Assembly (NCBI RefSeq): GCF_000739655.1
Contig: NZ_BATR01000169.1
Coordinates: 1 to 35,606, forward strand
Origin: Verrucomicrobium sp. BvORR106
Lineage (GTDB): Bacteria > Verrucomicrobiota > Verrucomicrobiia > Verrucomicrobiales > Verrucomicrobiaceae
Reading direction: 5' to 3'
DNA: 35,606 nt
Part shown: positions 5,395 to 23,433 of the stretch, piece after piece
How positions within the stretch are numbered: the first letter of the stretch is position 1
Layout: each line of letters starts with the position of its first letter
Position numbers and translations under genes: made by a program
Notes under the pieces: generated by a model
The model's database searches: none
Told to the model about the DNA's origin: nothing
Seen by the model: only the letters and a program-made list of their open reading frames with translations

Positions 5395-5764
5395 GCGTTC
5401 TCTGACGGTCATTCACCCTGAGCCATTTGCACCTCTACCCCTTCGTATCCCAGTGCGTCAGTAGGCGGTGCGTCAGTTCGTCAGAATCCGTAATTTTGCT
5501 CACCAAAAAGTGTTTTGCCCCCGTTTAGCGTCAAGTCAGCGTCCGTCAGCGGTTCACTTTCTTATCCCTTGCCCCTTAACCCTCTTCCCTCTCTGAGTCA
5601 GCGGTTCCCCCTTATCCCTCTTCCCTAACCCCTTTTCCCTCTCCCCGTTAGTGTGAATCAGTGGTTCGTCTTTCTCCTAAACCAAGCTCCGCCGCCTAAA
5701 CGCCCGCTTGCGGGCTCTCAACCAGCCGCTTGCGGCGTCTCAACCTAGGCCGTATCTTCCCGGC
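5395..5764. repeat. Gene-free repeat-rich gap before the U32 gene
   Basis: No gene is visible. Around 5450-5500 are units of about 8 bases based on GTCAGTNC. Heptamer arrays occupy 5562-5589 (TTATCCC, TTGCCCC, TTAACCC, TCTTCCC) and 5612-5646 (TTATCCC, TCTTCCC, TAACCCC, TTTTCCC, TCTCCCC). Each array is preceded by the direct repeat GTCAGCGGTTC (5545-5555 and 5597-5607), and a third diverged copy, ATCAGTGGTTC, is at 5657-5667. The segment therefore arose by duplication of a unit of roughly 52-60 bases. Two small hairpins with the core CGCTTGCG follow at 5702-5715 and 5725-5736, each followed by a CTCAACC-like tail. Confidence 0.75.
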
Positions 5765-8391
<2,627 letters not shown>

Positions 8392-8739
8392 CCACAAGGA
8401 AGAAAGCATTCCACTGGAAGCTTTCGGACACGCGCGCATTTTCCCATTCGGCTACTCGCTTTAGCCTCCGCAGTCGCTAGAAACCATTGCTTGGTGCTCC
8501 CCTTAAAAATGGGCCAAGCCTTGGTAGCCATAGGTGCCACAATGCGAAGTCGCTAAAGATCGCAATGGATTTACACGACGAACTATCAGTTTGCAGGCTG
8601 GACATTTTCAATGGCCTACGCAATCCTTAGCCCTCAAGGTGAGCAAATTACCGTTCATCGATCAGAAGTGCTTGCCCTGCGTCCAGTGTCGCCATAGTTC
8701 CACCGTACGCTTGCTCTTCCTCTGCAAAACTTTCTGGAA
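8392..8739. other. Island left boundary; gene-free gap
   Basis: About 350 bases without a convincing gene and visibly less GC-rich than the U32 gene before it. An imperfect palindrome follows the U32 stop at 8402-8425: GAAAGC, a bulged A, TTCCA, then TGGAA and GCTTTC. It may serve as a terminator although no T-run follows. A short open frame on the plus strand (GTG 8534 to the TGA at 8741-8743) ends in an ATGA overlap with the helicase start. Its product (69 residues, with a CLPCVQC motif) matches nothing I know and its composition is not protein-like. No integrase, tRNA or insertion sequence was seen. Confidence 0.5.
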
Positions 8740-11700
8740 ATGACTGAATCGCCCTCTCCAGCCCTTGCCTCACTACGAGACAATCGCCCCACCAGGGGGA
8801 CCGTTGGTGACTTCCTGAAGCAAGAAATACTGCCCGACAGCATACTTTCGTTCGTTTCCGCCTACTTTACGGTTCATGCATATCAAGCTCTCGCTGAACA
8901 GCTTGAGAATGCCGACCACCTGCGATTTCTCTTCGGCGAGCCAACATTCATTTCAGGCATCGACAAAGGAGGCAAGCAGTCAGCGAATTTCAAGCTAACC
9001 GAAAACGGCCTGACCATAGCCAAAACACTGGTGCAGGGGGCAGCAGCAAGAGCTTGTGCCGCATGGATTGATCGCATGGTCCAGATTCGCTCGATCCGCC
9101 AATCGAACTTCCTTCACGGGAAGGCGTACCACATCCAAAACGGTAACGCCTCCAGCGCAATTCTTGGCAGCTCCAACTTCACGGTTCCAGGCCTTGGGCT
9201 GGGCCCGAACAGTAACATTGAGCTAAACCTGATTGTCGACTCTGACCGAGATCGGAGAGACCTCAAAGCTTGGTTCGATGAGGTTTGGACCGACGAGCGG
9301 CTAACCAAGGACGTTAAGCAGGAAGTTTTGACCTACCTCAATCGGCTCTCCGCTCCCAACTCGCCCCAGTTCATTTACTTCCTCACACTCTACCATCTCT
9401 TCAGGGGAGAGCTCGAGGGTGCGAAGGAAACAGATGACAACCTCAGAACCAGCAGTCTCCTTGAGGCAAACGTCTGGAAGATGCTTTACTCGTTCCAAAA
9501 GGACGGGGTTAAGGGTGCAATCAACAAAATCCGCGACTACAACGGCTGCATTTTGGCAGACAGCGTCGGGCTAGGAAAAACTTTCGAGGCCCTGGCCGTG
9601 ATCAAATACTTCGAGCTAAGGAATGAAAAGGTCCTCGTTCTCTGTCCAAAGAAACTCAGGCAAAACTGGACCGTGTTTCGTTCCAACAGCCGCCTGAATC
9701 CGCTGCTCGACGACCGCTTTGCCTTCGACGTGCTTTCCCACACAGATTTATCCCGCACCTCAGGAATGACGGGCGATCACGATCTCGCTAATTTCCACTG
9801 GGACAACTACGGGCTCGTGGTAATTGACGAGTCGCACAACTTCCGCAACAACGCTGTTGGGAAACCAAATGACGACGGAACGTCGCGGCGCACCCGATAT
9901 GAGAGGCTCCTGGAGGACGTGATTCAGTCCGGGCAGAAGACCAAGGTACTCCTGCTTTCCGCCACCCCGGTCAACAACGGTATCTCAGACCTGCGAAATC
10001 AGATTTCCTTCATTGCGGGTGGCGACGTAGCTCGCTCAGCAGACCCGACTCACGATGGTGCCTTCAAAGAGAAGCTCGGCATTCCGAGCGTCAAAGAAAC
10101 AACCCGTAAAGCCCAGGCCAAGTTCACACTCTGGACCAAAAAGCCAGCCGAGCAACGAAAGTCACGCGACCTCATTCATGAGCTGGGCAGCGACTTCTTC
10201 CATCTCCTCGACGGTTTGACGATCGCGCGCTCGCGAGCGCAGATCAAACGCTACTACTCTCAGGAAATGGAGAAGCTTGGCGGATTTCCGAAGCGCAATG
10301 CCCCCCTCGCAGAATATCCTCACATTGATTTGAATCAGGAGTTTCTCTCTTTCGAGGAACTCGACCGGCGGATCGGAGAGTTGACGTTGAGCCTCTACCA
10401 TCCCAGCACCAAGCTGAAAAAGGATCTTCCCCCTCAAGTTCGCGCCCACTACGAGCAAAAAATCGGCAACTTCAACCAGGCCGGCCGCGAGCGGATCCTC
10501 ATCGCCATGATGAAGATCAACTTCCTCAAACGGCTGGAAAGTTCGATCGACTCCTTCCGCCTTACTCTCGCGCGCACGATTGAGAAAATCGACCGTCTTG
10601 AAATGAAGCTCCAGGCTTTCCAGGAAGCTCGGAGCGCCAATCCCCAGCTCGACTTTGCCAATCTCTCCGAAGATGACTTCGACGATCTGGACCTCGACCC
10701 CGAAGATCTTGAGATCGGCGGCAAACACAAGATCAACCTCAGCCACCTCAACCTCCCAGATTGGTTGCTCGCCGTTCGTCTGGATAGGGACCAACTGCAG
10801 AACTTGCTGGATCACGCCAACCCCGTGACTGTCGTGCGCGATGCCAAGCTCACGCGCGTGAGAGAGATCATCACTGAAAAAGTGAAGAGACCGGGCAAAA
10901 ACAAGGACGGTAAGCCGGTGCGAAAGGTCATCATTTTCACGGCCTTTGCCGATACGGCCCGCTACCTGTACGAACACCTCGCCCCTTATTGCCGTGATAC
11001 GCTCGGCGTTCACAGCGCGCTCATCTGCGGTGGGGGGAAGTACAAGACCTCGCTCGGCGGCAATGATTTCGAGCAAATACTGACCAACTTCTCGCCGATT
11101 TCGAAGAAGCGTGACAAGCAGCGTCAGCTTCCTCAAGACGAGGAAATCGACCTACTCATTGCCACCGACTGCATCTCGGAAGGCCAAAACCTCCAGGATG
11201 CCGATCTTCTGATCAACTACGACATCCACTGGAATCCGGTCCGCATCATCCAGCGCTTTGGCCGCATCGACCGGATCGGATCGAAGAACAAGACAGTCTC
11301 GCTGGTCAATTTCTGGCCTACCAAGGATCTTGACGCCTACCTCAATGTGAAGAACCGCGTCGAGGACCGGATGGCGCTTGTCGATCTCACCGCCTCTGGT
11401 GAGGACAATCTGCTCGCCTCAGACCAGATCGAAGATTTGATAAAAACTGATCTGCACTACCGCAACCAGCAGCTCAAACGCCTCCAGAACGAAATCCTCG
11501 ATCTTGAGGAACTGGAAGACGAGATGATCTCGCTCGCTGACTTTTCGCTCACGGACTTTCGACTGGATCTGCTCAAGTTCCTGGAAAACAATCGCGAGCA
11601 GCTTGAATCTGCGGAACTCGGTCTCTACGCCATCGTTCCTCCGGATCCGCAATTACCCGCTTCCCAGCCAGGTATCCTTTTCTGCCTGCGCCAGCGAGAT

Positions 11701-12081
11701 GACAAGCGCTCTACCGAAGTGAACCCACTGGCTCCTCACTATCTGGTCTATGTGTTGGACGATGGCAATGTACGCCTTACCTTCATGCAGCCGAAGCAGT
11801 GTTTGGAGCTCTTCCGAGTATTGGCAGCCGGTTATCCGAGTGCATTCACCGACCTCTGCGACGCATTCGATACTCGGACCCAAAATGGCGAGGACATGAG
11901 CCAAGCCTCCAAACTTCTCGAATCGGCTGTCGCCTCCATCAAGCGCAGCTTCACCAAGCGTGCGACCGCCTCCCTCTTTTCGGGACGCGACGGCCTACTG
12001 CCCAAAGCCAGCGAGACGCCATCATCCACCGATGACATGGAACTCATCACCTGGCTCGTTATCTCGAATCCTTTGAAATGA
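8740..12081 (+). CDS. PLD-nuclease-like domain fused to a superfamily 2 (SNF2/DEAD-like) helicase
   Basis: 1113 residues. Residues about 20-190 form a phospholipase D-like domain with the HxK...GSxN half-motif: H126, K128, then GSSNF at 143-147. The usual Asp five residues after the Lys is Gln133. This fold occurs in nucleases such as BfiI. The helicase has Walker A DSVGLGKT at 274-281, DESH at 363-366, SATP at 407-410 and motif VI QRFGRIDRIG at 838-847, separated by a long charged, coiled-coil-rich insert (about 520-700). It would move along DNA using ATP and may cut it through the PLD domain. First gene of a five-gene unit; the methyltransferase starts 6 bases downstream. The size and helicase class resemble DrmD of class 1 DISARM and other restriction-associated helicases. 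The role in defence is an inference from its partners. Confidence 0.92.
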   Translation: MTESPSPALASLRDNRPTRGTVGDFLKQEILPDSILSFVSAYFTVHAYQALAEQLENADHLRFLFGEPTFISGIDKGGKQSANFKLTENGLTIAKTLVQGAAARACAAWIDRMVQIRSIRQSNFLHGKAYHIQNGNASSAILGSSNFTVPGLGLGPNSNIELNLIVDSDRDRRDLKAWFDEVWTDERLTKDVKQEVLTYLNRLSAPNSPQFIYFLTLYHLFRGELEGAKETDDNLRTSSLLEANVWKMLYSFQKDGVKGAINKIRDYNGCILADSVGLGKTFEALAVIKYFELRNEKVLVLCPKKLRQNWTVFRSNSRLNPLLDDRFAFDVLSHTDLSRTSGMTGDHDLANFHWDNYGLVVIDESHNFRNNAVGKPNDDGTSRRTRYERLLEDVIQSGQKTKVLLLSATPVNNGISDLRNQISFIAGGDVARSADPTHDGAFKEKLGIPSVKETTRKAQAKFTLWTKKPAEQRKSRDLIHELGSDFFHLLDGLTIARSRAQIKRYYSQEMEKLGGFPKRNAPLAEYPHIDLNQEFLSFEELDRRIGELTLSLYHPSTKLKKDLPPQVRAHYEQKIGNFNQAGRERILIAMMKINFLKRLESSIDSFRLTLARTIEKIDRLEMKLQAFQEARSANPQLDFANLSEDDFDDLDLDPEDLEIGGKHKINLSHLNLPDWLLAVRLDRDQLQNLLDHANPVTVVRDAKLTRVREIITEKVKRPGKNKDGKPVRKVIIFTAFADTARYLYEHLAPYCRDTLGVHSALICGGGKYKTSLGGNDFEQILTNFSPISKKRDKQRQLPQDEEIDLLIATDCISEGQNLQDADLLINYDIHWNPVRIIQRFGRIDRIGSKNKTVSLVNFWPTKDLDAYLNVKNRVEDRMALVDLTASGEDNLLASDQIEDLIKTDLHYRNQQLKRLQNEILDLEELEDEMISLADFSLTDFRLDLLKFLENNREQLESAELGLYAIVPPDPQLPASQPGILFCLRQRDDKRSTEVNPLAPHYLVYVLDDGNVRLTFMQPKQCLELFRVLAAGYPSAFTDLCDAFDTRTQNGEDMSQASKLLESAVASIKRSFTKRATASLFSGRDGLLPKASETPSSTDDMELITWLVISNPLK

Positions 12082-12087
12082 TTTTCC

Positions 12088-15000
12088 ATGCCTATTGTCA
12101 CTGATATCCGGCCGCTACTAGCGAACGCTCTTCAGGGGCTTGAATTTGGACTGCTCCGTGATTCCGCAATACACCTTCTAAGTGTGCTCGGATACGAAAG
12201 CGATCGCACCCACGAATTGGCAGATTCTTCACCGCTAGCCTTTCTCGAACTCGTCGAAACGCAGAAAAGCGATGCGAAGTTCGATCAAGCCAAGGCTCTC
12301 TTCGCTGAGTGGAAATCCGCCGACATTCTTTTCCAGCTCACCAGCGAAGACCTTGCGGCCACTTCCAGCCTGTTCAAGGAAACCGATCTCAAGCCCGGCC
12401 TACTCCAGTCCTACCTCTTCTTCTCCATCGAGCTGACGGGCAAAAACTACGCCCGTGGCAAGCTCACCGGCATCGCCCGTCAGATCAACCGCGTTTTCCC
12501 CATGCCCGTCATGGTGCTGATCCGCCATGGCGACGCAACCGGCAGCCCCATCCTCTCCATCGCCGTCATCAACCGGCGGCAAAACAAACTCCAAGCCAGC
12601 AAGGACGTCCTCGAAAAGGTCACCCTCATCCGCAACATCTCCCTGTCTAGCCCCCACCGCGGCCATCTCGACATCCTTGCCTCCTTCGCACTCCAGAATC
12701 TCGTCCACCCGAAGAAACTCCCCATCCAGGACTTCGACACCCTCCACGCCGCGTGGGAGGAAATCTTCAACGTCGAACTGCTAAACAAACGGTTCTACCG
12801 AGAACTGGCCAACTGGTATTTCTGGGCGCTCCCGCAGGTAGAGTTCCCCGCCGACATCGAGAAGGACGACGAGAAACGCCGCGCCACTGGCCTCATCCGG
12901 CTGCTCACCCGCCTCATTTTCTGCTGGTTCCTCAAGGAAAAGGGCCTCATCCCGGAAAAACTCTTCCATCCCACCGACCTCACCAAGCTCCTCAAAGGCT
13001 TCGACCCCGAGAGCGAGACCAGCTCCGTCTATTACCAGGCCATCCTGCAGAACCTCTTCTTCGCCACGCTCAATCAGCGCATGGGCAAGGATTCCAAGGG
13101 CAACCCATACCGCGTCTTCGCCACCGACGAGGGCTTCCTGAAGAACAAGACCACCTACGATGTCAACAATCTCTACCGCTACGAAAAGCACTTCGCCGTC
13201 CCGCAGGACGAAGCCCTCGCCCTTTTCGCCGACATCCCCTTCCTCAATGGCGGGCTTTTCGAGTGTCTCGATCAATCAGAAGAGGGCACCGGCAAAAAAC
13301 GCTACCTCGATGGCTTCTCGCGCAATCCCAAGATGCGCCCCCATGTCCCCGACCGCCTCTTCTTCGACAGCGGCGAGACTGCCGACCTCGCCGAAGTCTA
13401 TGGCGACAAGAAACGCAAGGCCGAGAAGGTCACCGGACTCATCTCCATCCTGAACCGTTACAAGTTCACCATCGTCGAGAACACGCCCATTGATCAGGAA
13501 ATCGCCCTCGATCCCGAGCTGCTCGGCAAGGTCTTCGAGAACCTCCTCGCCTCCTACAACGAAGAAACCAAAACCACCGCCCGCAAGCAGACCGGCTCCT
13601 TCTACACCCCGCGTCCCATCGTTGAATACATGGTGGACGAATCGCTCAAGGCCCACCTCACCGGCGCTCTAACGCAGAACGGCATGAGGGAGACGGACGC
13701 GCAGGCTGGCCTCGACATCCTCTTCGCATACACCGAGCGCGAGCATCCATTCCGCGAGCACGAAGTTGCCGCCCTGCTCGACGCCATCCACACCTGCAAG
13801 ATTCTCGACCCCGCCTGCGGCTCCGGTGCCTTCCCGATGGGGATGCTGCAAAAACTCGTTTACATCATCCACAAGCTCGACCCCGACAACGCCCGCTGGA
13901 AGCAACTCCAGATCGACACCGCCGCGAAGATTCCCGATCCCTCCGCCCGCGACGCCGCCATCACCGCCATCGAACGCGACTTCGCCGACAATGAGGACGA
14001 CTACGGCCGCAAGCTCTACCTCATCGAGAACTGCCTCTACGGCGTGGACATCCAGCCCATCGCCATCCAAATCTCGAAGCTCCGTTTCTTCATCTCCCTC
14101 GTCTGCGACCAGCGCACCAACCGCAGCAAAAAGGAAAACCACGGCATCCGCCCGCTGCCCAACCTCGAAACCAAGTTCGTCGCCGCCGACACGCTCATAG
14201 GGCTTCCGATTCCCGCGCCAGACCTCTTTGTGCGAACTCTGATTGATCCTATTGAAGCCAAGATCGAATTCGCCGTGCATTCCCACTTCGGTGCTCAAAA
14301 TCGTAAACAGAAGCTCAAGCTACAGGATGACATCAATCGCCTGCAGTCAGAGCTCGCTGAAGCGATTGCGACCAGTCTTGGCGCCAAGCCGGGTTCAGAC
14401 GTTGCAGTCAAAGCCCGGCACATTGCAAAGTGGAACCGATTTAATCCTCAGATCGCAGCAGACTTCTTCGATACTCATTGGATGTTCGGGCGCTCATTGG
14501 GAAAAGGCTTCGACATCGTCTTTGGAAATCCGCCTTATATCCAGATTCAGAAGTTTCCCGCCGCACAGAAAGCCATATGGCAATCTCAAGGATTCAAGAC
14601 CTACGCCGCCACTGCTGACATTTATTGCCTCTTTTACGAACGCGGCGCGCAACTCCTCAAACCGGGCGGGCACCTTGCCTACATCACATCTAACAAATGG
14701 ATGCGAGCAGGTTATGGCGATCAGTTGCGCGGCTTCCTCTCATCTGAAGTGGACACTGTCTCGGTGCTCGACTTCGGCATGGCGCAAAACTTCGGGGCAG
14801 CCACTACCTATACCTGCATTGTGCAGCTTGAGAATCAACCCTACGCGCGAAAAACGCTCTCATGCTACGCTGTCGATGACCGTGCAGCCATGGCCGACCC
14901 AGCGAGCTATTTTGAACAAAACCGCGTTCTGCAAGATCACCTGAACGATTCGCCATGGGTCGTCATCTCCAAGGAACGCCAGCGCATCAAGGAACTGGTC

Positions 15001-15975
15001 GAAGCCCAGGGCGTGCCGTTGGAGAAGTGGGCCATTCAAATCAATTACGGCATCAAGACCGGCTTCAACGATGCCTTTTACATCACGCAGGATCAGCGCG
15101 ACGCGATGGTGGCTGAAGATCCAAAGTGCGCGGACTTGATCGTGCCCCTGCTGCGGGGGCGCGATCTGGCCCGATTTCAGTCTAACTGGGACGGGACATG
15201 GATGATCAACACACACAATGGACTCCGAAGTGCTGGAGTTCCGCCGGTTGATGTCCGCAGGAATTTTCCCGCAATCTGGAAGCACCTGATCCAATGGGAG
15301 ACAGAGCTAAAGACGCGCCAAGACAAGGGCAACCATTGGTCGAACCTTCGAAATTGTGCCTACCTGCGTGAGTTCTCGCAGCCGAAGATCATTTATCAGG
15401 ATATCGCGCAGAGCCTCCCGTTCTACTTCGATGACCGCGAACACTTCTTCTTCAACAACACGCTTTGGATGATGAATGGGGACGCATCGCAGCTCCCCTA
15501 CGTCACCGCGATGCTAAACTCATCGGTCTTCCGGTGCTGCTTTCGAGACAACTTCCCTGAATACTCGGGAAACGCCTACCGGCTATTCGCCATCTTCATG
15601 GAGAAAATCCCGGTGAAAAAACCTACAGACCAGCAATCTGCGTTGTTCGAAAAGCTCGTTCCGTTGATCCAGTTCGCCAAACGCACCGACGAGTTGATCG
15701 CCGCACAGTTTCTCGAAGACCTTATCGATGCCTGCGTAATGGAGTGCTACTTCCGCGAGCACATGGCCGAGCGCGACCTGCTGTTTCTCGACGACCTGGC
15801 TCCCCATCTCTCCGCCTACGACCCTAGCGCCTCCGAATCGCAACAGAGCGAGTTCATCGCCCAGCTCCACCGCACGCTGAACGCCCCCACGTCGAAAATC
15901 CGCAACCGCCTCCTCCGCATCTCCGCCGACAGCCCCGACCTCCTCGCCGTCATCAAAGAGGAGGGCGCGGTATGA
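12088..15975 (+). CDS. Eco57I-class adenine-specific DNA methyltransferase
   Basis: 1295 residues. Motif I (S-adenosylmethionine binding) is ILDPACGSG at 572-580 and the catalytic motif IV is NPPY at 814-817, the signature of N6-adenine methylases. KQTGSFYTPRPIVEYMV before motif I is the usual lead-in of type I/IIG-like enzymes. Residues about 990-1190 look like a TaqI-C-type target-recognition region (GIKTGFNDAFYI, PLLRGRDLARF). The first 500 residues are helical, and I see no PD-(D/E)xK nuclease motif, so cutting would have to come from another subunit. The stop overlaps the ATPase start by ATGA. Codon use changes within the gene: about 12400-14190 uses C at most third positions, whereas 14200-15600 (catalytic half and recognition domain) is much more mixed. 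It probably marks self DNA, like DrmMI or PglX. Confidence 0.93.
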   Translation: MPIVTDIRPLLANALQGLEFGLLRDSAIHLLSVLGYESDRTHELADSSPLAFLELVETQKSDAKFDQAKALFAEWKSADILFQLTSEDLAATSSLFKETDLKPGLLQSYLFFSIELTGKNYARGKLTGIARQINRVFPMPVMVLIRHGDATGSPILSIAVINRRQNKLQASKDVLEKVTLIRNISLSSPHRGHLDILASFALQNLVHPKKLPIQDFDTLHAAWEEIFNVELLNKRFYRELANWYFWALPQVEFPADIEKDDEKRRATGLIRLLTRLIFCWFLKEKGLIPEKLFHPTDLTKLLKGFDPESETSSVYYQAILQNLFFATLNQRMGKDSKGNPYRVFATDEGFLKNKTTYDVNNLYRYEKHFAVPQDEALALFADIPFLNGGLFECLDQSEEGTGKKRYLDGFSRNPKMRPHVPDRLFFDSGETADLAEVYGDKKRKAEKVTGLISILNRYKFTIVENTPIDQEIALDPELLGKVFENLLASYNEETKTTARKQTGSFYTPRPIVEYMVDESLKAHLTGALTQNGMRETDAQAGLDILFAYTEREHPFREHEVAALLDAIHTCKILDPACGSGAFPMGMLQKLVYIIHKLDPDNARWKQLQIDTAAKIPDPSARDAAITAIERDFADNEDDYGRKLYLIENCLYGVDIQPIAIQISKLRFFISLVCDQRTNRSKKENHGIRPLPNLETKFVAADTLIGLPIPAPDLFVRTLIDPIEAKIEFAVHSHFGAQNRKQKLKLQDDINRLQSELAEAIATSLGAKPGSDVAVKARHIAKWNRFNPQIAADFFDTHWMFGRSLGKGFDIVFGNPPYIQIQKFPAAQKAIWQSQGFKTYAATADIYCLFYERGAQLLKPGGHLAYITSNKWMRAGYGDQLRGFLSSEVDTVSVLDFGMAQNFGAATTYTCIVQLENQPYARKTLSCYAVDDRAAMADPASYFEQNRVLQDHLNDSPWVVISKERQRIKELVEAQGVPLEKWAIQINYGIKTGFNDAFYITQDQRDAMVAEDPKCADLIVPLLRGRDLARFQSNWDGTWMINTHNGLRSAGVPPVDVRRNFPAIWKHLIQWETELKTRQDKGNHWSNLRNCAYLREFSQPKIIYQDIAQSLPFYFDDREHFFFNNTLWMMNGDASQLPYVTAMLNSSVFRCCFRDNFPEYSGNAYRLFAIFMEKIPVKKPTDQQSALFEKLVPLIQFAKRTDELIAAQFLEDLIDACVMECYFREHMAERDLLFLDDLAPHLSAYDPSASESQQSEFIAQLHRTLNAPTSKIRNRLLRISADSPDLLAVIKEEGAV

Positions 15976-17645
15976 AGTCCCGCCTCCACCGCCTCGAAAT
16001 CCGCAACTTTAAAGCCTTCCGCGAGCCGTTCACTCTCGAGCTCGAAGGCCGTCACCTGCTCGTTTACGGCAGCAACGGCTCCGGCAAATCCTCCCTCTAC
16101 TGGGCGCTCTACACCTTCCTTCAGAGTGCCAACAAGCCGACTCCCGGCGTCGCCAAATACTTCGATCCCGCCGACCCGCAAAACCTGCTCAACATTCACG
16201 AGAAAGACCCGGCCACCAAGCCAGGTGAAATCGCCCTGACCCTGCGCGACATCGCGACGAAGAACGACACGACGTATCGCATCAGCCAGACCGTCCACGG
16301 CACCCGCCAACAACCCGCGATCCTCAAAGGCGACCTCGCCAGCGACTTCATCACCTACCGCTTCTTCTTCGGTTTCTCCGATTTCCGAAACTCGCAGACG
16401 TTCAACGTCTGGCCGTTATTTGAGAAAGAGATTCTCCCTTTCTGTGTCACGACCGCCGGAGGTAGGCAAACGCCGGTTCAGATGTGGAACGCGATTCGGT
16501 CAGGCCAACCTAATCCTTATGCAAACAAAGGCCGCGCTGGGACGTATGCCTATGCCGACTTCCACTCAGCCACTAAGAGGTTCGCGGCCATCCTTCCCGG
16601 AATCATTGATGCCATAAGCTCTGAGGCTCAGTCCTTCTACGACACGCATTTCGCCAAGGACGACCAACCGAGGAAGATCACTTTAAAGCTCGGCCTCACG
16701 ACGCCACCCTCCTCCTCGGGCGACAATCAGGCGGAGTTTCGGTTTACGCCTCCTGCAATCGGGTTTGGCGTCAAAATCGACGGCAGGACCATTGATCGTC
16801 CGCAGAGTTTTCTGAATGAAGCCAAGATGACGCAGCTCGCGCTTTCCGTCCGTTTCGCCGCTTCTCTGGTCAATCTTCACGAGTCCGACCTCAAGCTCCT
16901 CGTCCTCGACGACCTCCTCGTCAGCCTCGATATGAGCAACCGGATGAAGGTCGTCGAAATCCTCCTCTCCGATACCTTCGAGAACTACCAAAAGCTCATC
17001 CTCACTCACGAACTCGGCTTCTTCCGCGAGTTCCGGCGCAAACTCGGTCCCGATCACCCGAATTGGAGTTGTGTGAGTCTGGAAGGCACGCCTGCCACTG
17101 CGATCAGCGGTCGCACGGTCAAAACCGACCTTCAGAAAGCGGAGGAGTATCTCAACGGCTACAATCTGGACGAAGCCGCGCTCTGCCTCCGCAAGGTTGC
17201 CGAGGATACTGCCAAGCGTTTCATCGATCACAATGAAGTGCTCCCCACCAAAGACTTCGTTGGTCTGACGGAGGCTCTCCGAGCTGCACGTAACAAGATC
17301 CAATCAGAGCTGCCGGTGGAACTCTACGAAAAGGTTGTACGCAATACTCCAAACGCCCATCGCAATCTCCTTATCGCTTCAGATGATTCTGATCTTGATG
17401 GAAACACGGCATTAGACCCTCAAACGAAAGGGAGGCTGAAGACCAATCGTAACCGCTTACGCAGCCTCATCTCTACAGAACACGTTGAGCGACTGAAAAC
17501 GGTGAAGCTAATCGACGACATCCTCGCTTGCACCGAGAGGGTTTTGAATCCCGCCGCCCACTCCGGATCTCCACCACTCTACAAAAAGGAGGTGCAAGAC
17601 GCGCTCGATCTTATCGCACAATTGGAAATTCGACTAGCATCATGA
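15972..17645 (+). CDS. SMC/RecF-like AAA family ATPase
   Basis: 557 residues. The N-terminus LHRLEIRNFKAFREPF and Walker A GSNGSGKS (33-40) are typical of RecF/SMC/OLD-type ATPases that bind DNA ends or gaps. A signature-like helix (NEAKMTQLALSVRFA, about 277-291) precedes Walker B LLVLDD (309-314) and the D-loop SLD. There is a D-D pair where many relatives have D-E. No long coiled-coil arms are present, so this is a compact form. After the ATPase core (about residue 365) a helical C-terminal region contains DEAALCLRKVAEDTAKRF and ends NPAAHSG...EVQDALDLIAQLE, resembling helical modules seen in other defence-associated ATPases. It overlaps both neighbours by ATGA, so translation is probably coupled. 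Likely role: sensing DNA structure and licensing the helicase or nuclease (inference). Confidence 0.88.
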   Translation: MKSRLHRLEIRNFKAFREPFTLELEGRHLLVYGSNGSGKSSLYWALYTFLQSANKPTPGVAKYFDPADPQNLLNIHEKDPATKPGEIALTLRDIATKNDTTYRISQTVHGTRQQPAILKGDLASDFITYRFFFGFSDFRNSQTFNVWPLFEKEILPFCVTTAGGRQTPVQMWNAIRSGQPNPYANKGRAGTYAYADFHSATKRFAAILPGIIDAISSEAQSFYDTHFAKDDQPRKITLKLGLTTPPSSSGDNQAEFRFTPPAIGFGVKIDGRTIDRPQSFLNEAKMTQLALSVRFAASLVNLHESDLKLLVLDDLLVSLDMSNRMKVVEILLSDTFENYQKLILTHELGFFREFRRKLGPDHPNWSCVSLEGTPATAISGRTVKTDLQKAEEYLNGYNLDEAALCLRKVAEDTAKRFIDHNEVLPTKDFVGLTEALRAARNKIQSELPVELYEKVVRNTPNAHRNLLIASDDSDLDGNTALDPQTKGRLKTNRNRLRSLISTEHVERLKTVKLIDDILACTERVLNPAAHSGSPPLYKKEVQDALDLIAQLEIRLAS

Positions 17646-18505
17646 AGCCGCAGGACGCCAGTCTTACCATGGTCGATGAAGATGTCGCTCGCTCTCTGCT
17701 AGATCAGCTCCTCGAAGATTCAAAACTCTACAAAACGAGCACGGACTACTTCGAACTGCTAGAGTTCACCAAGCGCCTGAGAAACTTCGCGCCCTTCAAC
17801 GCAATGCTGCTTCACGTGCAGAAGCCAGGCCTTCGCTACGCTGCCTCCGCTTACGACTGGAAAGAACGCTTCGGCCGGAGCCCGAAAGAAAACGCGCGTC
17901 CTTTGTTGATCCTCTGGCCGTTCGGCCCGGTTGCACTCGTCTATGATGTCCAAGACACGGAGGGCAAAGACCTACCAATTGACGTGGACACCTTTTTTGC
18001 ACGAGGTGCAATCACAGCGAAGCAATTATCCGGCGTCATTGAGAAGATGAACCGCAGGAACATTGACTGTACCTTCTTTGACGGTGGCGATGGGAACGCC
18101 GGATCGATACGGGTGGAGAAAGCTCCAACAACGAAAGAGGGTGGCCTCTACTCGATGCAATTAAACCGTAACCATAATGCTCCAGTGCAGTTCGTCACCA
18201 TCGCGCACGAACTGGCTCACCTTTTCCTTGGTCATCTTGGTCCCGATAGGAAACTCAACATTCCAGAGCGTCCGCGCCCAGACCATGCGAAAGAAGAACT
18301 TGAGGCCGAATCCGTCGCCTACCTCGTCTGCGGACGGAATGGGGTAGAATCGAAGTCCCAAGCCTACCTGACCCATTTCGTTGAAGCGAACACGACCGTG
18401 GATAGCCTCGATCTGTACCAAGTCATGCGCGCCGCCGGCCAGATCGAAACCCTGCTCGGGCTAGCGTCTCACACCCGGTACCAGAAACCCAATACCTTAG
18501 CGTAA
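17642..18505 (+). CDS. ArdC-like / IrrE-ImmA-type zinc metallopeptidase
   Basis: 287 residues; the ATG at 17642 overlaps the preceding stop (ATGA). The C-terminal half has the gluzincin motif HELAH at 189-193, with a downstream Glu in LEAESVAYLV (E221 is the probable third zinc ligand), as in ImmA, IrrE and other DUF955 peptidases. The N-terminal half (about 30-125) contains FNAMLLHVQKPG, YDWKERFGR and VYDVQDTEG, a pattern I associate with the single-strand-DNA-binding domain of ArdC-type proteins. ArdC is a plasmid anti-restriction protein, so finding this architecture inside a restriction-like operon is notable. ImmA and IrrE act by cutting a partner repressor, and the next gene encodes a winged-helix protein that could be that target (inference). 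Confidence 0.85.
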   Translation: MKPQDASLTMVDEDVARSLLDQLLEDSKLYKTSTDYFELLEFTKRLRNFAPFNAMLLHVQKPGLRYAASAYDWKERFGRSPKENARPLLILWPFGPVALVYDVQDTEGKDLPIDVDTFFARGAITAKQLSGVIEKMNRRNIDCTFFDGGDGNAGSIRVEKAPTTKEGGLYSMQLNRNHNAPVQFVTIAHELAHLFLGHLGPDRKLNIPERPRPDHAKEELEAESVAYLVCGRNGVESKSQAYLTHFVEANTTVDSLDLYQVMRAAGQIETLLGLASHTRYQKPNTLA

Positions 18506-18524
18506 CCTCTGCCAATTCGGCAAC

Positions 18525-19118
18525 ATGAAGATCGCAACTCCCCCCACTCCAGACGACGTACCCGCAGCTCTCCAGCTTCTCCAGGATGCTCTTGGAGAAG
18601 AAGAGGCTCGCATTCGCAAAGAGGGTTCTAAGGCAATGGAGGGAGGCGACTACGATACCGCCACAGCAGTGATCGATTTTGCCAGGCGACTGCTGGCCTT
18701 TCAGAATAAGGTCGCAGGATTGGAGATCGAATGGGCCGAGCTTGAAGACCTGCGCGATAAGGCCACGCCAGCCGTTCAGGAAATCGTTAGCAAACGCTTC
18801 TTTGGCCGGAGCAAGAAGGGCGACATCACCTCTCAGGACGACTATTGCGCCCCGGTCCTCCGTGTGCTGGTGGAAATGGGCGGCAGCGGCAAGACCAGGG
18901 ATGTCATTACGAAGGTGGGACAGGCCATGAAAGGCACCCTTAAGCCCAAGGACTACGAGAAGACCACCAGCCGTGCGCGAGAGCCCCGTTGGGAAAACAC
19001 CACCCGCTGGGCACGGCAGAAGATGGTGGACGACGGTCGGATGAAGTCAGACAGCCCCACCGGAGTCTGGGAAATCTCCGACAAGGGACGTGCGTGGCTG
19101 AAGAGGTCCGCGGTGTAG
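18525..19118 (+). CDS. Winged-helix protein with Mrr-N-like domain
   Basis: 197 residues. The C-terminal half (about 105-195) follows the pattern of the Mrr N-terminal DNA-binding domain: YCAPVLRVLVEMGGSGKTRD, then WENTTRWARQKMVDDGRM and GVWEISDKGRAWL. The N-terminal half is helical and charged (EEEARIRKEGSKAMEGGDYD, then an AxxVIDFARRLLAFQNKV helix), possibly for dimerisation. No Mrr nuclease catalytic motif (D...QxK) is present, so it is a DNA binder rather than an endonuclease. It starts 19 bases after the peptidase gene and closes the five-gene unit. It could be a repressor or sensor controlled by the peptidase, or a DNA-docking subunit of the restriction machinery. A hairpin follows at 19129-19150. 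Confidence 0.8.
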   Translation: MKIATPPTPDDVPAALQLLQDALGEEEARIRKEGSKAMEGGDYDTATAVIDFARRLLAFQNKVAGLEIEWAELEDLRDKATPAVQEIVSKRFFGRSKKGDITSQDDYCAPVLRVLVEMGGSGKTRDVITKVGQAMKGTLKPKDYEKTTSRAREPRWENTTRWARQKMVDDGRMKSDSPTGVWEISDKGRAWLKRSAV

Positions 19119-19128
19119 CAACTGGACT

Positions 19129-19150
19129 CTGGAAGTGGGAGACACTCCAG
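19129..19150. terminator. Hairpin at the right end of the island
   Basis: CTGGAAGTG (19129-19137) pairs with CACTCCAG (19143-19150) apart from one bulged A, around loop GGAGA. It lies 10 bases after the stop of the winged-helix gene and before the convergent LysR stop. No T-run follows, so termination is only a possibility. Confidence 0.4.
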
Positions 19151-19183
19151 CCAAGGAGGTCGCTTAGATGGAAGCATCCCTCC

Positions 19184-20092
19184 TCACCTTGCCAATTGCT
19201 CCCCGACCTGCTCGCACAGCGTCATAAACGTCTGCTCCGCGAGCGACACGGGCTTCTGCTTCATGTGGGCGACCACCCATTGTCTCTTAATCCTTGAGCG
19301 CACCAACGGCAATGAAACGAGCTCCCCAGACTTGATCTCCGCGGGGGCGGTCCAGGCGGCGACCATGGCGACGCCTAAGCCGAGTTTGACGAGTTCCTTG
19401 ATGGCCTCGGTGTTGCCGAGTTCGATGAAGGACTTGGGGCGGACGCCGAGTTTCAGGAAATACTCACCGATCATCTCGAACGTGGAGCTGTTCCGGCTGG
19501 AGATGATGTAGGTCTCGCCCGCGAGGTCCTTGGTCTTGGGATGCTGCTGGGCCCAGGGGTGGAGGGGGCTGGCGAGGAAGATGAGTTCATCTTCAAACAA
19601 CGGGCGGCAGTCCACGCGGGCGACATCGCGCGGACGCAGGCAGACGGCGAGATCGAGCACGCCTTCTTCAAGACGTTGCAGGGTGTCGGGCGTCTCCCCC
19701 GGCACGACGGAGATGCTATATAAGGGGAAGGAGTCCTTAAACTCCCGCAGCACGGTGGGCAGGATGAACTGGGAGGCGGCGGGCGTGGACCCGATGCGGA
19801 TCTGACCACGCGGATTCTGATCCAGCGCGCCCAGACTGGCACGGGCCAGGGCCATCTGGCGCTGAATTTCCTCCGCATGACGCAGCAGTTCGCGGCCGTG
19901 GTGGGTGAGCAAAACGCGCTTTCCCTGCCGGTGAAACAGCATGCAGCCCAGGTCCTCCTCCAGGGCGCGGATGGCATGACTGATGGCCGATTGCGTCAAA
20001 TGCAGGGACCTCCCGGCCTGGGTAAAGCTCCCCTCACGGGCGAGGACGGTGAAGGCACGAAGCTGACGCGAATCGAGGAGTGGAGAATCCAT
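19184..20092 (-). CDS. LysR-family regulator, probably of nitrate assimilation
   Basis: 302 residues. The N-terminal helix-turn-helix is clear (LDSRQLRAFTVLAREGSF, then LHLTQSAISHAIRALEEDL) and the effector-binding domain runs from about residue 95 (GQIRIGSTPAASQFILP) to the end. It is divergent from nrtA with 168 bases between starts, the usual arrangement of a LysR regulator and its target. By position it is analogous to NtcB of cyanobacteria, but I see no residue-level reason to assign that name, and CysB/Cbl-type sulfur or nitrogen regulators are equally possible. A perfect palindrome with the LysR T-N11-A pattern starts only 2 bases upstream of its ATG (20094-20110), which would allow autoregulation and would place its own ribosome entry inside the operator. 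Confidence 0.92.
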   Translation of the reverse strand: MDSPLLDSRQLRAFTVLAREGSFTQAGRSLHLTQSAISHAIRALEEDLGCMLFHRQGKRVLLTHHGRELLRHAEEIQRQMALARASLGALDQNPRGQIRIGSTPAASQFILPTVLREFKDSFPLYSISVVPGETPDTLQRLEEGVLDLAVCLRPRDVARVDCRPLFEDELIFLASPLHPWAQQHPKTKDLAGETYIISSRNSSTFEMIGEYFLKLGVRPKSFIELGNTEAIKELVKLGLGVAMVAAWTAPAEIKSGELVSLPLVRSRIKRQWVVAHMKQKPVSLAEQTFMTLCEQVGEQLAR

Positions 20093-20093
20093 C

Positions 20094-20110
20094 TATGAAT
20101 GAAATTCATA
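20094..20110. promoter_or_regulatory. Palindromic operator upstream of nrtA/LysR
   Basis: TATGAAT-GAA-ATTCATA is a perfect 7-3-7 inverted repeat and contains T-N11-A (T20096, A20108). A copy with one mismatch in its 15-base core lies at 25992-26006 upstream of the NasS-like gene. Both lie nearly the same distance from a -24/-12 element: 57 bases here and 56 there, measured from palindrome centre to the TGG. Binding by the adjacent LysR protein is likely but an enhancer-binding activator is also possible. Confidence 0.7.
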
Positions 20111-20158
20111 CTTGGCGTTAGAAAGTTGTCGAGCGGTTTTTCATTCTTGGCCCGGCGG

Positions 20159-20174
20159 TGGCACGTGCCGTGCA
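20159..20174 (+). promoter_or_regulatory. Sigma-54-like -24/-12 promoter of nrtABCD
   Basis: TGGCACGTGCCGTGCA fits TGGCAC-N5-TTGCA with one mismatch (G for the first T of TTGC) and keeps GG-N10-GC exactly. The start of transcription would fall near 20185, giving a leader of about 76 bases before the nrtA ATG. Sigma-54 control is common for nitrogen assimilation genes. Confidence 0.65.
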
Positions 20175-20260
20175 GTTCAAAACAGCCGCAAGAGCGCATC
20201 CTGCATTTTTCATTAGCCAGACTCATCCCTCCTTTATCTCCACCCTCCCAACACCTCTCC

Positions 20261-21553
20261 ATGAAGATGCTCCCCGAAGCCGGCCTCACCCGCCGCGAAA
20301 TGATCCGGAAGACCACCAAGGCCCTGGGCGCCAGCGCGTTGTTTTCCGGCCTGCCCGCAGGCTGGGTCGGCTCTGCGTTTGCTGATGACTCCCCGGAAGT
20401 CAAAGATGTGAACCTGGGCATCATCGCCCTCACGGACTGCTCGAGCATCGTCATTGCTCATGAAAAAGGGCTCTTCAAGAAGTACGGCATCAACTCCAAA
20501 GTGAGCAAGGGCGCGAGCTGGGCTGCGATCCGCGACTCGCTCTCCAACGGCGACCTCCACGGCACCCACATGCTGCTCGGCATGCCTATTGCTTCCACCA
20601 TGGGTCTGGGTGGTGCGCCCAAGAAGCCTATGATTGTCCCGTGGCTGCTCAACCGCAATGGCCAGGCTATCACGCTCAAGAAAGAGCTGAAGGGCAAGGT
20701 GGCAGCCGATCCCAAGGCGCTGAAGCCCTTTGTGGATGAAGCCAAGGCGGCGGGCAAGCCGATGACCTTTGCCATGACCTTCCCGCCGGGCACGCACGCC
20801 ATGTGGATCCGCTACTACCTGGCCGCGGGTGGCATCCACCCCGGTGATGCAAGCGGCGCTGGCGCGGACATCTCCCTCATCACCATCCCGCCGCCCCAGA
20901 TGGTGGCGAACATGAAGGTGGGCCAGATGGACGGCTTCTGCGTGGGCGAGCCCTGGAACGCGCGCAGCATCGTGGACGACATCGGCTTCACCTCCATCAC
21001 CACCCAGGCGATCTGGAAGGACCACCCGGAAAAGGTGTGCGCCTTCACCCAGGAGTTCGCGGAAAAAAATCCCAAGACCGTGAAAGCGGTGCTCAAGGGT
21101 CTGCACGAGGCCAGCGTGTGGCTGGACAAGATGGAGAACCGCGAGGAGCAGGCCAGCATCGTGAGTGCGGCCACCTACATCAACTGCCCGCCGGAAATCA
21201 TCCTGCCCCGTCTGCAGGGCAAGTACGACATGGGCGACGGCCGGCGCTTCCGCGACCCGAACTACATGACCTTCAGCGACCGCAACTGCAACTACCCGCA
21301 GGCCAAGTACGGCCTCTGGTGGCTCACCCAGCTCCGCCGCTGGGGCTTCACCGCGGGCGCACCGGAATACGCAGCGGTGACCAAGCAGGTGATGCGCGGC
21401 GACATCTACGAAGAAGCCATGAAGGAGATCGGCTACACCCACGGCGGAGCCGATGACAAACCGGAGAGCTTCTTCGACGGCAGCGTCTTTGATCCCAAGG
21501 CCGACCTGGAGGCCTATGCCGCCAGCTTTGCCATCAAGAGCCTGAAAGCCTAA
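20261..21553 (+). CDS. nrtA: Nitrate ABC transporter, substrate-binding protein
   Basis: 430 residues of the NrtA/CmpA family; it captures nitrate (or nitrite) outside the inner membrane and hands it to NrtB. The N-terminus carries a twin-arginine motif (TRREMIRK, residues 10-17) and a hydrophobic stretch ending near AFA, so Tat export is likely. Family landmarks are IIALTDCSSIVIAHEKGLFKKYG, THMLLGMP, the TFPPGTHAMWIRYYLAAGG segment and MDGFCVGEPWN. The ATG at 20261 is preferred because it starts just before the Tat signal; longer frames upstream would run through the promoter. First gene of nrtABCD, 24 bases before nrtB. Nitrate rather than bicarbonate as substrate is inferred from the neighbouring nitrate and nitrite reductase genes. 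Confidence 0.94.
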   Translation: MKMLPEAGLTRREMIRKTTKALGASALFSGLPAGWVGSAFADDSPEVKDVNLGIIALTDCSSIVIAHEKGLFKKYGINSKVSKGASWAAIRDSLSNGDLHGTHMLLGMPIASTMGLGGAPKKPMIVPWLLNRNGQAITLKKELKGKVAADPKALKPFVDEAKAAGKPMTFAMTFPPGTHAMWIRYYLAAGGIHPGDASGAGADISLITIPPPQMVANMKVGQMDGFCVGEPWNARSIVDDIGFTSITTQAIWKDHPEKVCAFTQEFAEKNPKTVKAVLKGLHEASVWLDKMENREEQASIVSAATYINCPPEIILPRLQGKYDMGDGRRFRDPNYMTFSDRNCNYPQAKYGLWWLTQLRRWGFTAGAPEYAAVTKQVMRGDIYEEAMKEIGYTHGGADDKPESFFDGSVFDPKADLEAYAASFAIKSLKA

Positions 21554-21577
21554 TCCCCCCACCCCACTGAACCGCAG

Positions 21578-22468
21578 ATGAACCTGACCCTGTTCCAGAA
21601 ACTCAAGCTCGAGTCCGTCATGCTGCCAGCCCTGGCCATTCTGGGCTGCTGCCTGATCTGGTACGTGATTGCCGGAAAATCCGTCACCACCGTCAAGACC
21701 GACGACTGGGGCGACACGGTGAAGGTGACGAAACGCAGCGGCATCTCTGCCGATCTCCCCACCCCGGTGGAGACCTGGACGGCGAGCAAGGCGTACATCA
21801 CTGACCCGTTCGCCAAGCGTGGCGAACTGGACCAGGGCATTCTGCGGTTCACCTGGCTGTCTCTGAAACTGGTGGCGCAAGGTTATTTCCTTGCGCTGCT
21901 GATTGGAACCCCCATTGGATTCCTGCTGGGCCTGTCCAAGAAGTTCTCCATGGCGTTTGACCCCATCATCCAGATTCTGCGCCCGGTCTCCCCGCTGGCC
22001 TGGCTGCCCCTGGGCATGATCCTCTTCAGCGGGGTGAAGGTCATGGATGCCGGCGGACGCACCACCTTTGGTGCCTCCGATGCGGCCGCCCTCTTCACCA
22101 TCGCCATCTGCGCCATGTGGCCCACGGTGATGAACACGGCGGTGGGCGTGCGCGCCGTGCCACAGGACTACCTGAACGTGGCCAAGGTGCTGAAACTCTC
22201 CCGCACCAAGACGCTGTGGAAGGTGCTGGTGCCCGCCACCCTGCCCTACATGTTCACCGGCTTCCGCCTCAGCCTGGGGATCGCCTGGCTGGTGATCGTG
22301 GCGGTGGAGATGCTGACCGGCCGGCCCGGCGTGGGCGGCTTCCTCTGGCAGCAGTACAACGCGAACAGCTTCGCCCACATCATCCTTTGCATCAACGTAA
22401 TCGGTCTCGTCGGTTATGTCCTCGACCGCCTCATGAGCCTCGCGGAGTCGAAGCTGAAGACGGCCTGA
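21578..22468 (+). CDS. nrtB: Nitrate ABC transporter, permease
   Basis: 296 residues. Inner-membrane channel subunit of the nitrate importer. One N-terminal membrane segment (about 15-33) is followed by a short periplasmic loop and then the conserved binding-protein-dependent transport domain with about five segments. The coupling EAA-type loop is seen around VGVRAVPQDYLNVAKVLKLS. TLPYMFTGFRLSLGIAWLVIVAVEML and GVGGFLW are typical of the NrtB/SsuC family. It follows nrtA closely and precedes the two ATPase genes by 38 bases, consistent with one transcript. It probably forms a homodimer in the membrane with one NrtC and one NrtD beneath it. Confidence 0.94.
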   Translation: MNLTLFQKLKLESVMLPALAILGCCLIWYVIAGKSVTTVKTDDWGDTVKVTKRSGISADLPTPVETWTASKAYITDPFAKRGELDQGILRFTWLSLKLVAQGYFLALLIGTPIGFLLGLSKKFSMAFDPIIQILRPVSPLAWLPLGMILFSGVKVMDAGGRTTFGASDAAALFTIAICAMWPTVMNTAVGVRAVPQDYLNVAKVLKLSRTKTLWKVLVPATLPYMFTGFRLSLGIAWLVIVAVEMLTGRPGVGGFLWQQYNANSFAHIILCINVIGLVGYVLDRLMSLAESKLKTA

Positions 22469-22506
22469 TGCGAGTTTCCTAAACCCCCATCCTCATTTAC
22501 CAGGTC

Positions 22507-23433
22507 ATGTCCCAACCCATTCTCTCACTCAAGAATGTCAGCAAGGGCTACGGGGCCAAAGGGGCCCGCACGGAGGTGCTGCGCGACATCAGCCTGGAGG
22601 TCCGGGAGGGCGAGTTCGTCGCCATCGTGGGCTACTCCGGCTCGGGCAAGACCACCTTCATCAACATGCTGGCCGGGCTGCTCAAGCCCGACAGCGGCGA
22701 GGTGCTGCTGGATGGCAAGCCCATCACCGGTCCCGGGCCGGACCGCGGCCTGGTCTTCCAGAACTACTCCCTCCTCCCCTGGCTGACGGTAACGGAAAAC
22801 ATCGCCCTCGCGGTGGACAGCGTCTTCCCCACGTGGAGTCAGGAGCAGAAGTCCGCCCACATTGCCAAATACATCGCCATGGTGAAGCTGACCAAGGCGG
22901 CGGGCAAACTACCCCGTGAGCTCTCCGGCGGCATGCGCCAGCGTGTCTCCGTAGCCCGCGCGCTGGCCATGGACTCCCGGGTGCTGCTGCTGGATGAGCC
23001 CCTGAGCGCCCTGGACGCGCTGACGCGGGCCAACCTGCAGGATGACATCAGCGAGATCTGGCAGAGCTCCCGCAAGACGGTGGTGTGGATCACCAATGAC
23101 CCGGACGAGGCCATTCTCCTGGCGGACCGCGTCATTCCCCTGCTGCCCACTGCCCCGGCCACCCTGGGCCAGGCCATCGACATCCCGCTGGCCCGTCCAC
23201 GTGACCGCTCTGCGATCAACCACGACCCGCAGTTCAAGGCCCTGCGCAACCAGCTCATCAACCTGCTGCTGGCCGCCAAGGAAAAGAGCCGCACCACCGT
23301 GAGCAAGAAGCTCGTCCTGCCCGACATCCTCCCCGAGGACATCTCCACGCCGAACTCCATCCAGTACCTGACCCGCCGCGGCCCCCGCCGCCGGTCCGAG
23401 GAAAAACGCGAAGAACTTGAAGTCGCATCATGA
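22507..23433 (+). CDS. nrtC: Nitrate ABC transporter, ATP-binding protein (NrtC position, without the fused sensor domain)
   Basis: 308 residues; powers nitrate import by ATP hydrolysis. Walker A is GYSGSGKT (42-49), the signature LSGGM (139-143) and Walker B VLLLDEP (159-165). The switch-loop histidine is replaced by Asn197 (ITNDPDE). Cyanobacterial NrtC has a second, NrtA-like domain at its C-terminus; here only a short basic tail of about 60 residues follows the ATPase, so the nitrate-sensing regulatory domain is missing. The stop overlaps the start of the next ATPase gene by ATGA. The pair is best read as a heterodimer (see the finding on the asymmetric ATP site). Confidence 0.92.

Follow-up and report, generated by a model that had tools for sequence, protein, structure and literature searches.

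We analyzed a 35,606-nt stretch of the Verrucomicrobium sp. BvORR106 genome (contig NZ_BATR01000169.1, positions 1–35,606; hereafter the window), in which five genes, P0001–P0005, all open and on the plus strand, occupy positions 8740–19118. The conserved unit within this block is its first three genes, which code for a PLD-SNF2 helicase, an Eco57I/TaqI_C methylase and a RecF/Rad50-type ABC ATPase. With moderate confidence, we read this trio as an ATP-dependent restriction-modification (R-M) system with a built-in PrrC-like suicide RNase as back-up. This reading draws directly on the anatomy of the genes, the conservation of all three together, intact catalytic motifs, a HEPN-like structural model and a conserved residue triad. 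Coordinates of all features are compiled in Table 1.

A conserved three-gene core

To find relatives, a four-sequence alignment of P0003 and three plasmid relatives found by tblastn was scanned against 84,980 genomes, one per species, plus IMG/VR viral contigs. The genome scan gave 591 pattern matches and 216 relatives, and we used the best 80 of the 216, i.e., the closest ones and not a random sample. Viral contigs yielded zero relatives with P0003 alone and five with the alignment. The survey set hence comprised 85 loci (80 genomic, 5 viral), all selected by the ATPase alone.

At least 7.4 kb precede the ATPase in 66 of the 85 loci. A P0002-family methylase lies directly upstream, within 1.5 kb and on the same strand, in 64 of these 66 (exceptions L070 and L090), and 52 of the 66 carry both the methylase and a P0001-like helicase upstream. 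Of 76 methylase-ATPase pairs, 58 have a gap between −3 and +5 bases. In the clade closest to the window (L015–L028) all three core genes were present in 12 of 14 loci; the exceptions are a 3.3-kb contig (L025) and a partial ATPase covering query residues 209–555 with opposite-strand genes before it (L028). The 12 full loci come from Pseudomonadota, Desulfuromonadales/Desulfobacteraceae, Verrucomicrobia, Pirellulaceae and Fimbriimonadaceae. More distant loci are found chiefly in Bacteroidetes, and also in Sulfurovum, Clostridiales, cyanobacteria, Latescibacterota and Poribacteria. Pairwise protein distances in 54 loci and the window correlate between helicase and methylase (r 0.80), methylase and ATPase (0.66) and helicase and ATPase (0.46). 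None of 2000 permutations reached any of these values, to which shared species history contributes. Within the phylum, P0003 was found in 1 of 288 sampled genomes, the window's own.

The tail of the block behaves differently. Picked open reading frames (ORFs) and tblastn gave a P0004 homologue in 0 of the 85 loci and a P0005 homologue in one (L019, 59%); in 78 of the 85, the sequence continues for 2 kb or more beyond the ATPase. The original prediction, made from the window alone, had described a distinct five-gene defense system. In other genomes its first three genes are conserved and the five-gene set is not; the survey gives a three-gene core with varying accessories. The layout itself had been described correctly as five co-directional genes with ATGA overlaps or gaps of at most 19 bases: ORF coordinates place 6 bases between P0001 and P0002, ATGA overlaps at the P0002/P0003 and P0003/P0004 junctions, and 19 bases between P0004 and P0005. 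For P0004 we use the ATG start at 17642 (287 aa); the mechanical ORF list has a TTG start at 17528.

Table 1. Genes and predicted domains of the block in window coordinates
Feature	Position	Strand	Evidence
P0001, PLD (HKD)-SNF2 helicase, 1113 aa	8740–12081	+	Pfam, PADLOC, conserved motifs (59–60 sequences)
P0001 PLD/HKD nuclease domain, aa 96–183; H126-x-K128, GSSN, E161	9025–9288	+	PLDc_2 31.6 bits (cut-off 27)
P0001 SF2 (SNF2) helicase motor, aa 249–847	9484–11280	+	Pfam SNF2-rel_dom, ResIII, Helicase_C
P0002, Eco57I-class N6-adenine methylase with C-terminal specificity domain, 1295 aa	12088–15975	+	Pfam, PADLOC
P0002 methylase catalytic core, aa 476–902	13513–14793	+	Pfam N6_Mtase, MmeI_Mtase, Eco57I
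P0002 TaqI_C-like target-recognition domain, aa 1020–1176	15145–15615	+	PF12950 37.4 bits (cut-off 26.5)
P0003, ABC ATPase-HEPN protein, third core gene, 557 aa	15972–17645	+	Pfam, survey, AlphaFold2 (AF2) model
P0003 RecF/Rad50/SMC-type ABC ATPase domain, aa 1–375	15972–17096	+	SMC_N 51 bits (cut-off 40); Foldseek
P0003 C-terminal HEPN-like domain, aa 376–557; R407/E411/N526/H530	17097–17642	+	Conservation, AF2, VIA
P0004, ArdC/IrrE-like zinc metalloprotease, accessory, 287 aa	17642–18505	+	Peptidase_M78 24.4 bits (cut-off 22)
P0005, N-terminal region and Mrr_N winged helix, accessory DNA-binding protein, 197 aa	18525–19118	+	Mrr_N 56.1 bits (cut-off 29.5)

Predicted activities of the core proteins

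Domains and families were called with Pfam, PADLOC 2023 (25 best families listed per protein) and NCBIfam 2026. The three agree on the domains of the five proteins, and no NCBIfam match of any of them exceeds its curated cut-off. Among the domain calls of the original prediction, Pfam supports the PLD-helicase, the Eco57I methylase, the SMC-like ATPase, the IrrE-type Peptidase_M78 and Mrr_N, and leaves the ArdC part without a match.

P0001 is a predicted translocating DNase, i.e., the putative restriction subunit. Its PLD residues H126, K128, N146 and E161 are each kept in 59 of 59 sequences, and Walker A, DEAH and motif VI of the helicase are conserved across the family alignment. The top PADLOC model is C3a139 ('HKD+Snf2', 403 bits), a name not found in the literature searched. 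In P0002, motif I and NPPY are conserved in the family; the top PADLOC model is REase_MTase_IIG (type IIG, 406 bits). Looked at for a nuclease domain of its own, as type IIG enzymes have in the methylase chain, its N-terminal 230 aa hold no invariant or near-invariant acidic residue in a 16-row alignment (A4).

The AF2 model of P0003 has a pLDDT of 88.0 and a pTM of 0.80, and Foldseek matched its ATPase part to the heads of SMC, RecF and Rad50 at E values of 1e-9 to 1e-7. Residues 376–557 form a helical domain with a pLDDT of 91.8 when modelled alone. The VIA structure list for this domain is led by HEPN entries with Z scores of 8–10: the top match 4nqf (Z 10.4, 2.5 Å over 105 residues), 1wwp (Z 9.9), the sacsin HEPN domain 3o10 (Z 9.4), HEPN toxins 8xdj and 8yuf (HEPN toxin Z 9.2), Csm6 (4rgp and 5yjc) and AbiV (9bj7). 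Titles or PMC3710099 identify these eight, among the top 17 rows, as HEPN. Four further rows are two RF2-ribosome entries, a designed protein and a ROQ domain of Roquin. The others in the top 17, 2q00, 2jpu, 1ufb, 6m6u (HepT) and 9oij (HepS), we take to be HEPN or HEPN-like.

In an alignment of 57 sequences (A5), R407, N526 and H530 never vary and E411 hardly does. A wider set keeps R407 in 81/81, E411 in 80/81, and N526 and H530 in 80/80 sequences each. R-x3-E...H occurs complete in 79 of 80 sequences, and the residue before the histidine is Ser in 54, Ala in 25 and Cys in one. The RloC triad is Arg-X3-Glu-X36-52-His, often with Ser before His; all three residues are needed and the Ala mutants are inactive (PMC2610378). 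P0003 shares with PrrC and RloC an N-terminal Rad50/RecF-like ABC ATPase and a C-terminal R-x3-E...[S/A]H. Their ATPase belongs to the AAA_13 family, whereas P0003 scores 26.4 with AAA_13, below the cut-off of 36. Five of the six AAA_13 matches in the phylum were long enough for comparison; R-x3-E...SH was found in 5/5 and N-x3-H in 4/5. RloC itself was rejected as an assignment: P0003 has no CxxC zinc hook and measures 557 aa compared with 739–810 aa in the five AAA_13 proteins.

PrrC and RloC have been classed as ABC-HEPN proteins (Anantharaman 2013, PMC3710099), and the same work predicts that R-M-linked HEPN domains are kept silent by the R-M enzyme; the P0003 family fits this prediction. 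From model and conservation, the C-terminus of P0003 is a predicted HEPN ribonuclease whose HEPN fold is likely, not proven. It is hence doubtful that the PLD domain is the only visible nuclease candidate, as had been stated in the original prediction.

Known systems, proposed mechanism and alternatives

Judged by its profile matches, the trio fits no named system fully and is not DISARM, Hma, BREX or RloC. A restriction-like locus other than DISARM had been predicted, and the matches listed by PADLOC (25 best families per protein) and NCBIfam indeed make up no named system in full. P0001 scored 153.6 bits against a NCBIfam DrmD cut-off of 610, and no DrmA, DrmB or DrmC was assigned among the five proteins; a 75.5-bit DrmA match of P0001 covers the helicase part. 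As in class 1 DISARM and ARMADA, a large SNF2-type helicase adjoins a large adenine methylase, but DrmA/YprA, DrmB and DrmC are not assigned here.

Hma (Type-1 BREX-related, BR) likewise combines helicase, methylase and ATPase in one operon. It was rejected because its ATPase is a DUF499 protein, whereas P0003 matches SMC_N and AAA_15/AAA_23; neither DUF499 nor DUF3780 gave a Pfam match in the five proteins. Fusions of this DUF499 ATPase to HEPN are frequent in Hma (PMC12839542). Moreover, the Hma helicase usually comes with a restriction endonuclease, in contrast to the PLD domain here, P0001 reaches only 88 bits with HmaA, and HmaB has been called an m5C methylase (PMC8565338). Type-2 BR systems resemble the trio in an N-terminal HKD-endoDNase fused to an SNF2 helicase, an N6-methylase and an ATPase (PMC12839542). 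P0001 has this fusion (PLDc_2 at 96–183, SNF2 from 253), yet the Type-2 BR ATPase is again DUF499 (AAA+) and not an ABC ATPase with a HEPN-like domain. An HKD-SF2 helicase and an ABC ATPase also occur in PbeABCD/CxC, but there the CxC ATPase has a zinc hook and stands with cytosine methylases and DndE (PMC10853773); Pfam gave no DndE match here. PbeA was absent among the 25 best PADLOC families of P0001 and weak in relatives (L076 72.0 bits, L097 36.9 bits).

PrrC, too, is encoded with an R-M set (EcoprrI); its partner is HsdRMS, whereas P0003 is partnered by the PLD-helicase/Eco57I methylase pair. Type I R-M was rejected: none of the five proteins matches Methylase_S (HsdS), and the specificity domain sits inside the methylase. 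Pfam and PADLOC matched none of the five proteins to PglZ or a BrxC-type ATPase, and BREX was rejected as well. The trio is unnamed in the literature searched, which excluded Krishnan et al. 2020 on ABC ATPases (gkaa726), so an earlier description is possible.

We propose the following mechanism by family resemblance. P0002 would methylate adenine at a site picked by its TaqI_C-like domain and so mark self DNA, while the SNF2 motor of P0001 would translocate on unmarked DNA and its PLD nuclease would cut. The P0003 ATPase would keep the HEPN RNase silent as long as the helicase-methylase complex is intact. If the complex were blocked, e.g., by a phage anti-restriction protein, or if DNA breaks piled up, HEPN would be freed and would cut host RNA, probably tRNA, causing a growth stop by analogy with PrrC beside EcoprrI. 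The add-on genes P0004 and P0005 might perhaps, in the simplest case, supply a protease that acts as a sensor together with its DNA-binding target, or else additional effectors. If all this is true, the principle of PrrC, i.e., a suicide RNase silenced by the restriction enzyme that it guards, would be widespread and hard-wired beyond a few type I systems, and helicase-methylase pairs would be suggested to carry exchangeable third-gene effectors. Cultured environmental hosts such as Spirosoma arboris (L041), Pedobacter paludis (L046) and Flavobacterium sp. NRK1 (L060) carry three-gene loci.

Several observations weigh against this proposal. The spacing between E and H is 56–131 residues in the P0003 family and exceeds the 36–52 of RloC, and R523, the arginine of the usual Rx4-6H motif, is kept in just 33 of 80 sequences. 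In VIA, helical bundles may score up to Z 13 without kinship. Foldseek with the C-terminal domain alone found zero matches at E ≤ 0.001, and P0003 itself has no Pfam HEPN match; at E values up to 1, DUF4145 matches 18 and HEPN 11 of 57 relatives, and ten relatives searched singly gave DUF4145 in six and HEPN in two, all sub-cut-off and lying for the most part within the N-terminal half. When RloC C-termini were compared by profile, the match was weak (probability 0.8–1.6%), and the short forms scored 16.0 against a shuffled maximum of 16.3. Also, 14 of the 66 loci lack a P0001-like helicase upstream, with which tblastn agrees, and helicase-methylase pairs without the ATPase occur (L006, L007, L106, L119). 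The long forms of the profile comparison scored 19.0 against a shuffled maximum of 18.2 (0/60 shuffles as high), and the top-scoring pieces fall on the R-x3-E and N...H stretches. Comparison of the domain with HEPN was weak or null as well; this test lacks power because the published pair RloC and HEPN, used as a positive control, failed too.

Four other explanations have to be considered. The ABC ATPase might be a DNA-looping or sensing subunit of a restriction system, with a HEPN-like domain that binds nucleic acid without cutting it. Some HEPN domains without the motif are thought to be non-catalytic (PMC3710099), and the frequent loss of R523 agrees with this. We nevertheless regard it as unlikely, given four polar residues that match the anticodon nuclease (ACNase) signature and are near-invariant in about 80 sequences from many phyla, for which a binding domain has no obvious need. 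A BREX-like exclusion, in which methylation would guide a block of phage DNA replication and no DNA would be cut, seems quite improbable to us. P0002 has a weak similarity to PglX (81.7 bits, NCBIfam cut-off 500), and sets of a helicase and a PglX-like methylase such as ARMADA protect against phage (PMC12458937); yet Pfam gives no match to PglZ- or BrxC-type components in the five proteins, and the PLD catalytic residues are strictly kept.

That all five genes are required as one distinct system would explain their tight spacing, and tail genes do recur beside other helicase-methylase pairs (L106, L019, L119); moreover, one congener, G289, keeps all five positions. We give this explanation very little credence in view of the survey counts for P0004 and P0005. 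In addition, P0004 of G289 carries a one-base deletion, and the divergence of the core differs from that of P0005, as would follow if the core were exchanged apart from the tail. A device against plasmids or conjugation in place of phages is hardly credible: two P0004 relatives are annotated as ArdC-like single-stranded DNA-binding proteins, and ArdC is tied to conjugative plasmids, but P0004 lies outside the conserved core. The R-M system with a PrrC-like back-up remains our preferred reading.

Accessory genes, exchange and surroundings

P0004 and P0005 are accessories, each of which recurs beside other helicase-methylase pairs. In L106 (genome G012), a PLD-helicase (60%) and a methylase (37%) are followed by a P0004 homologue (83%) that shares four bases with the methylase gene; P0003 has no match in this locus. 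L119 (G234) consists of helicase, methylase, AbiEii and a P0005 homologue (61%). L019 has the core and, downstream of it, two more genes and the P0005 homologue. Of 240 genomes sampled in the phylum, the window's own included, four contain P0004 and nine contain P0005, seven of the nine by partial matches; P0005 gave zero tblastn matches in plasmids. The HELAH motif of P0004 can be seen by eye in the translation, and its MPTase-PolyVal match (21.3 bits) stays below the cut-off of 27.5. The label ArdC comes from the annotation of the two remote relatives and from reading of the sequence. P0004 relatives also follow genes resembling type I R-M by eye in two near-identical stretches (L100/L101), and no restriction-type neighbour was seen in the parts read of L011, L107 and L108. 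On plasmids of Haematobacter (L014, 1811–19406) and Microvirga (L013, 1–12939), large N-6 methylase, DEAD/DEAH helicase and UvrD helicase genes form sets that resemble ARMADA type II; a P0004-family (ArdC/IrrE-like) gene lies within the set or follows it.

The position after the methylase varies where the ATPase is missing: it is taken by an ArdC-like gene in L106, AbiEii in L119, and another protein followed by TIR in L005. We suggest tentatively, at somewhat less than even confidence, that the P0003 family is a third kind of RNA-cutting guard akin to PrrC and RloC, placed nearly always right after a restriction methylase in many phyla, and that its slot is a general effector socket for an ABC-HEPN RNase, an ArdC-like protease, AbiEii with Mrr_N, or a TIR protein. 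The socket idea draws on few loci (L106, L119, L005). L005 (8256–16823) is a Parabacteroides plasmid in which the helicase-methylase pair precedes an unassigned protein and a TIR-domain gene, not an ABC-HEPN gene. In the surveyed loci, the 19 genes picked from between helicase and methylase include Schlafen AlbA_2 (8), YhcG nuclease (4), Fic-like_C (3) and Fic (1). The downstream chains comprise 74 genes of mixed families: nitroreductase, the commonest family among the first 25 of 58, accounts for just 5 of the 74, and many downstream genes are therefore mere neighbours.

Among the 14 loci without an upstream helicase, tblastn found a P0001-like match in L082 alone, downstream. This Cytophagales metagenome-assembled genome carries (5970–21576) two successive methylase-ATPase pairs and then a P0001-like helicase (44%). 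The Poribacteria and Latescibacterota loci L078, L079, L081, L085, L088, L089 and L091–L093 have a methylase-ATPase pair and no P0001-like helicase within the stretch; a different motor may serve them.

Three congeners (G289, G217, G288) were compared at the site. G289 carries the whole stretch at the same place (window 5363–22755, 95% identity). Synonymous divergence (dS, Nei-Gojobori) between the window (G000) and G289 was 0.02–0.07 for P0001–P0003, 0.26 for P0005 and 0.17–0.33 for three flanking genes; the P0004 value of 0.73 compares a shifted frame and was not used. From the lower dS of the core than of tail and flanks, P0001–P0003 were probably exchanged recently as one block, apart from the tail. 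In G289 the one-base deletion in P0004 lies in a T run (L135 about 13231; window 17991) and breaks the frame, which may be real decay or a sequencing or assembly error. In G217 the same U32 gene is followed by a type I R-M set (HsdR, a DUF6308 protein, HsdM, HsdS; L144 915–7156), and the other flank is on another contig, close to its end. We regard the site as a probable exchange hotspot for restriction systems, although the contig break in G217 prevents proof. The two flanks of G288 (76% complete) are on different contigs.

GC content is 0.54–0.60 inside the block and mostly 0.60–0.66 outside. Rfam gave zero matches at gathering scores in 8300–19300, and promoter-like sites were not in excess (2 found, 3.4 expected by chance). 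Terminator-like sites numbered 20 against a chance mean of 11.6, with 18 of the 20 on the opposite strand. As had been predicted, the neighbours are unrelated to the block: two U32 peptidase ORFs on one side, and LysR, NMT1 and an ABC transporter cluster on the other. The U32 gene is split in the window (5708–8391) into two overlapping ORFs (467 and 432 aa) and forms a single 894-aa ORF in G217; by this comparison, the split is a frameshift or a sequencing error.

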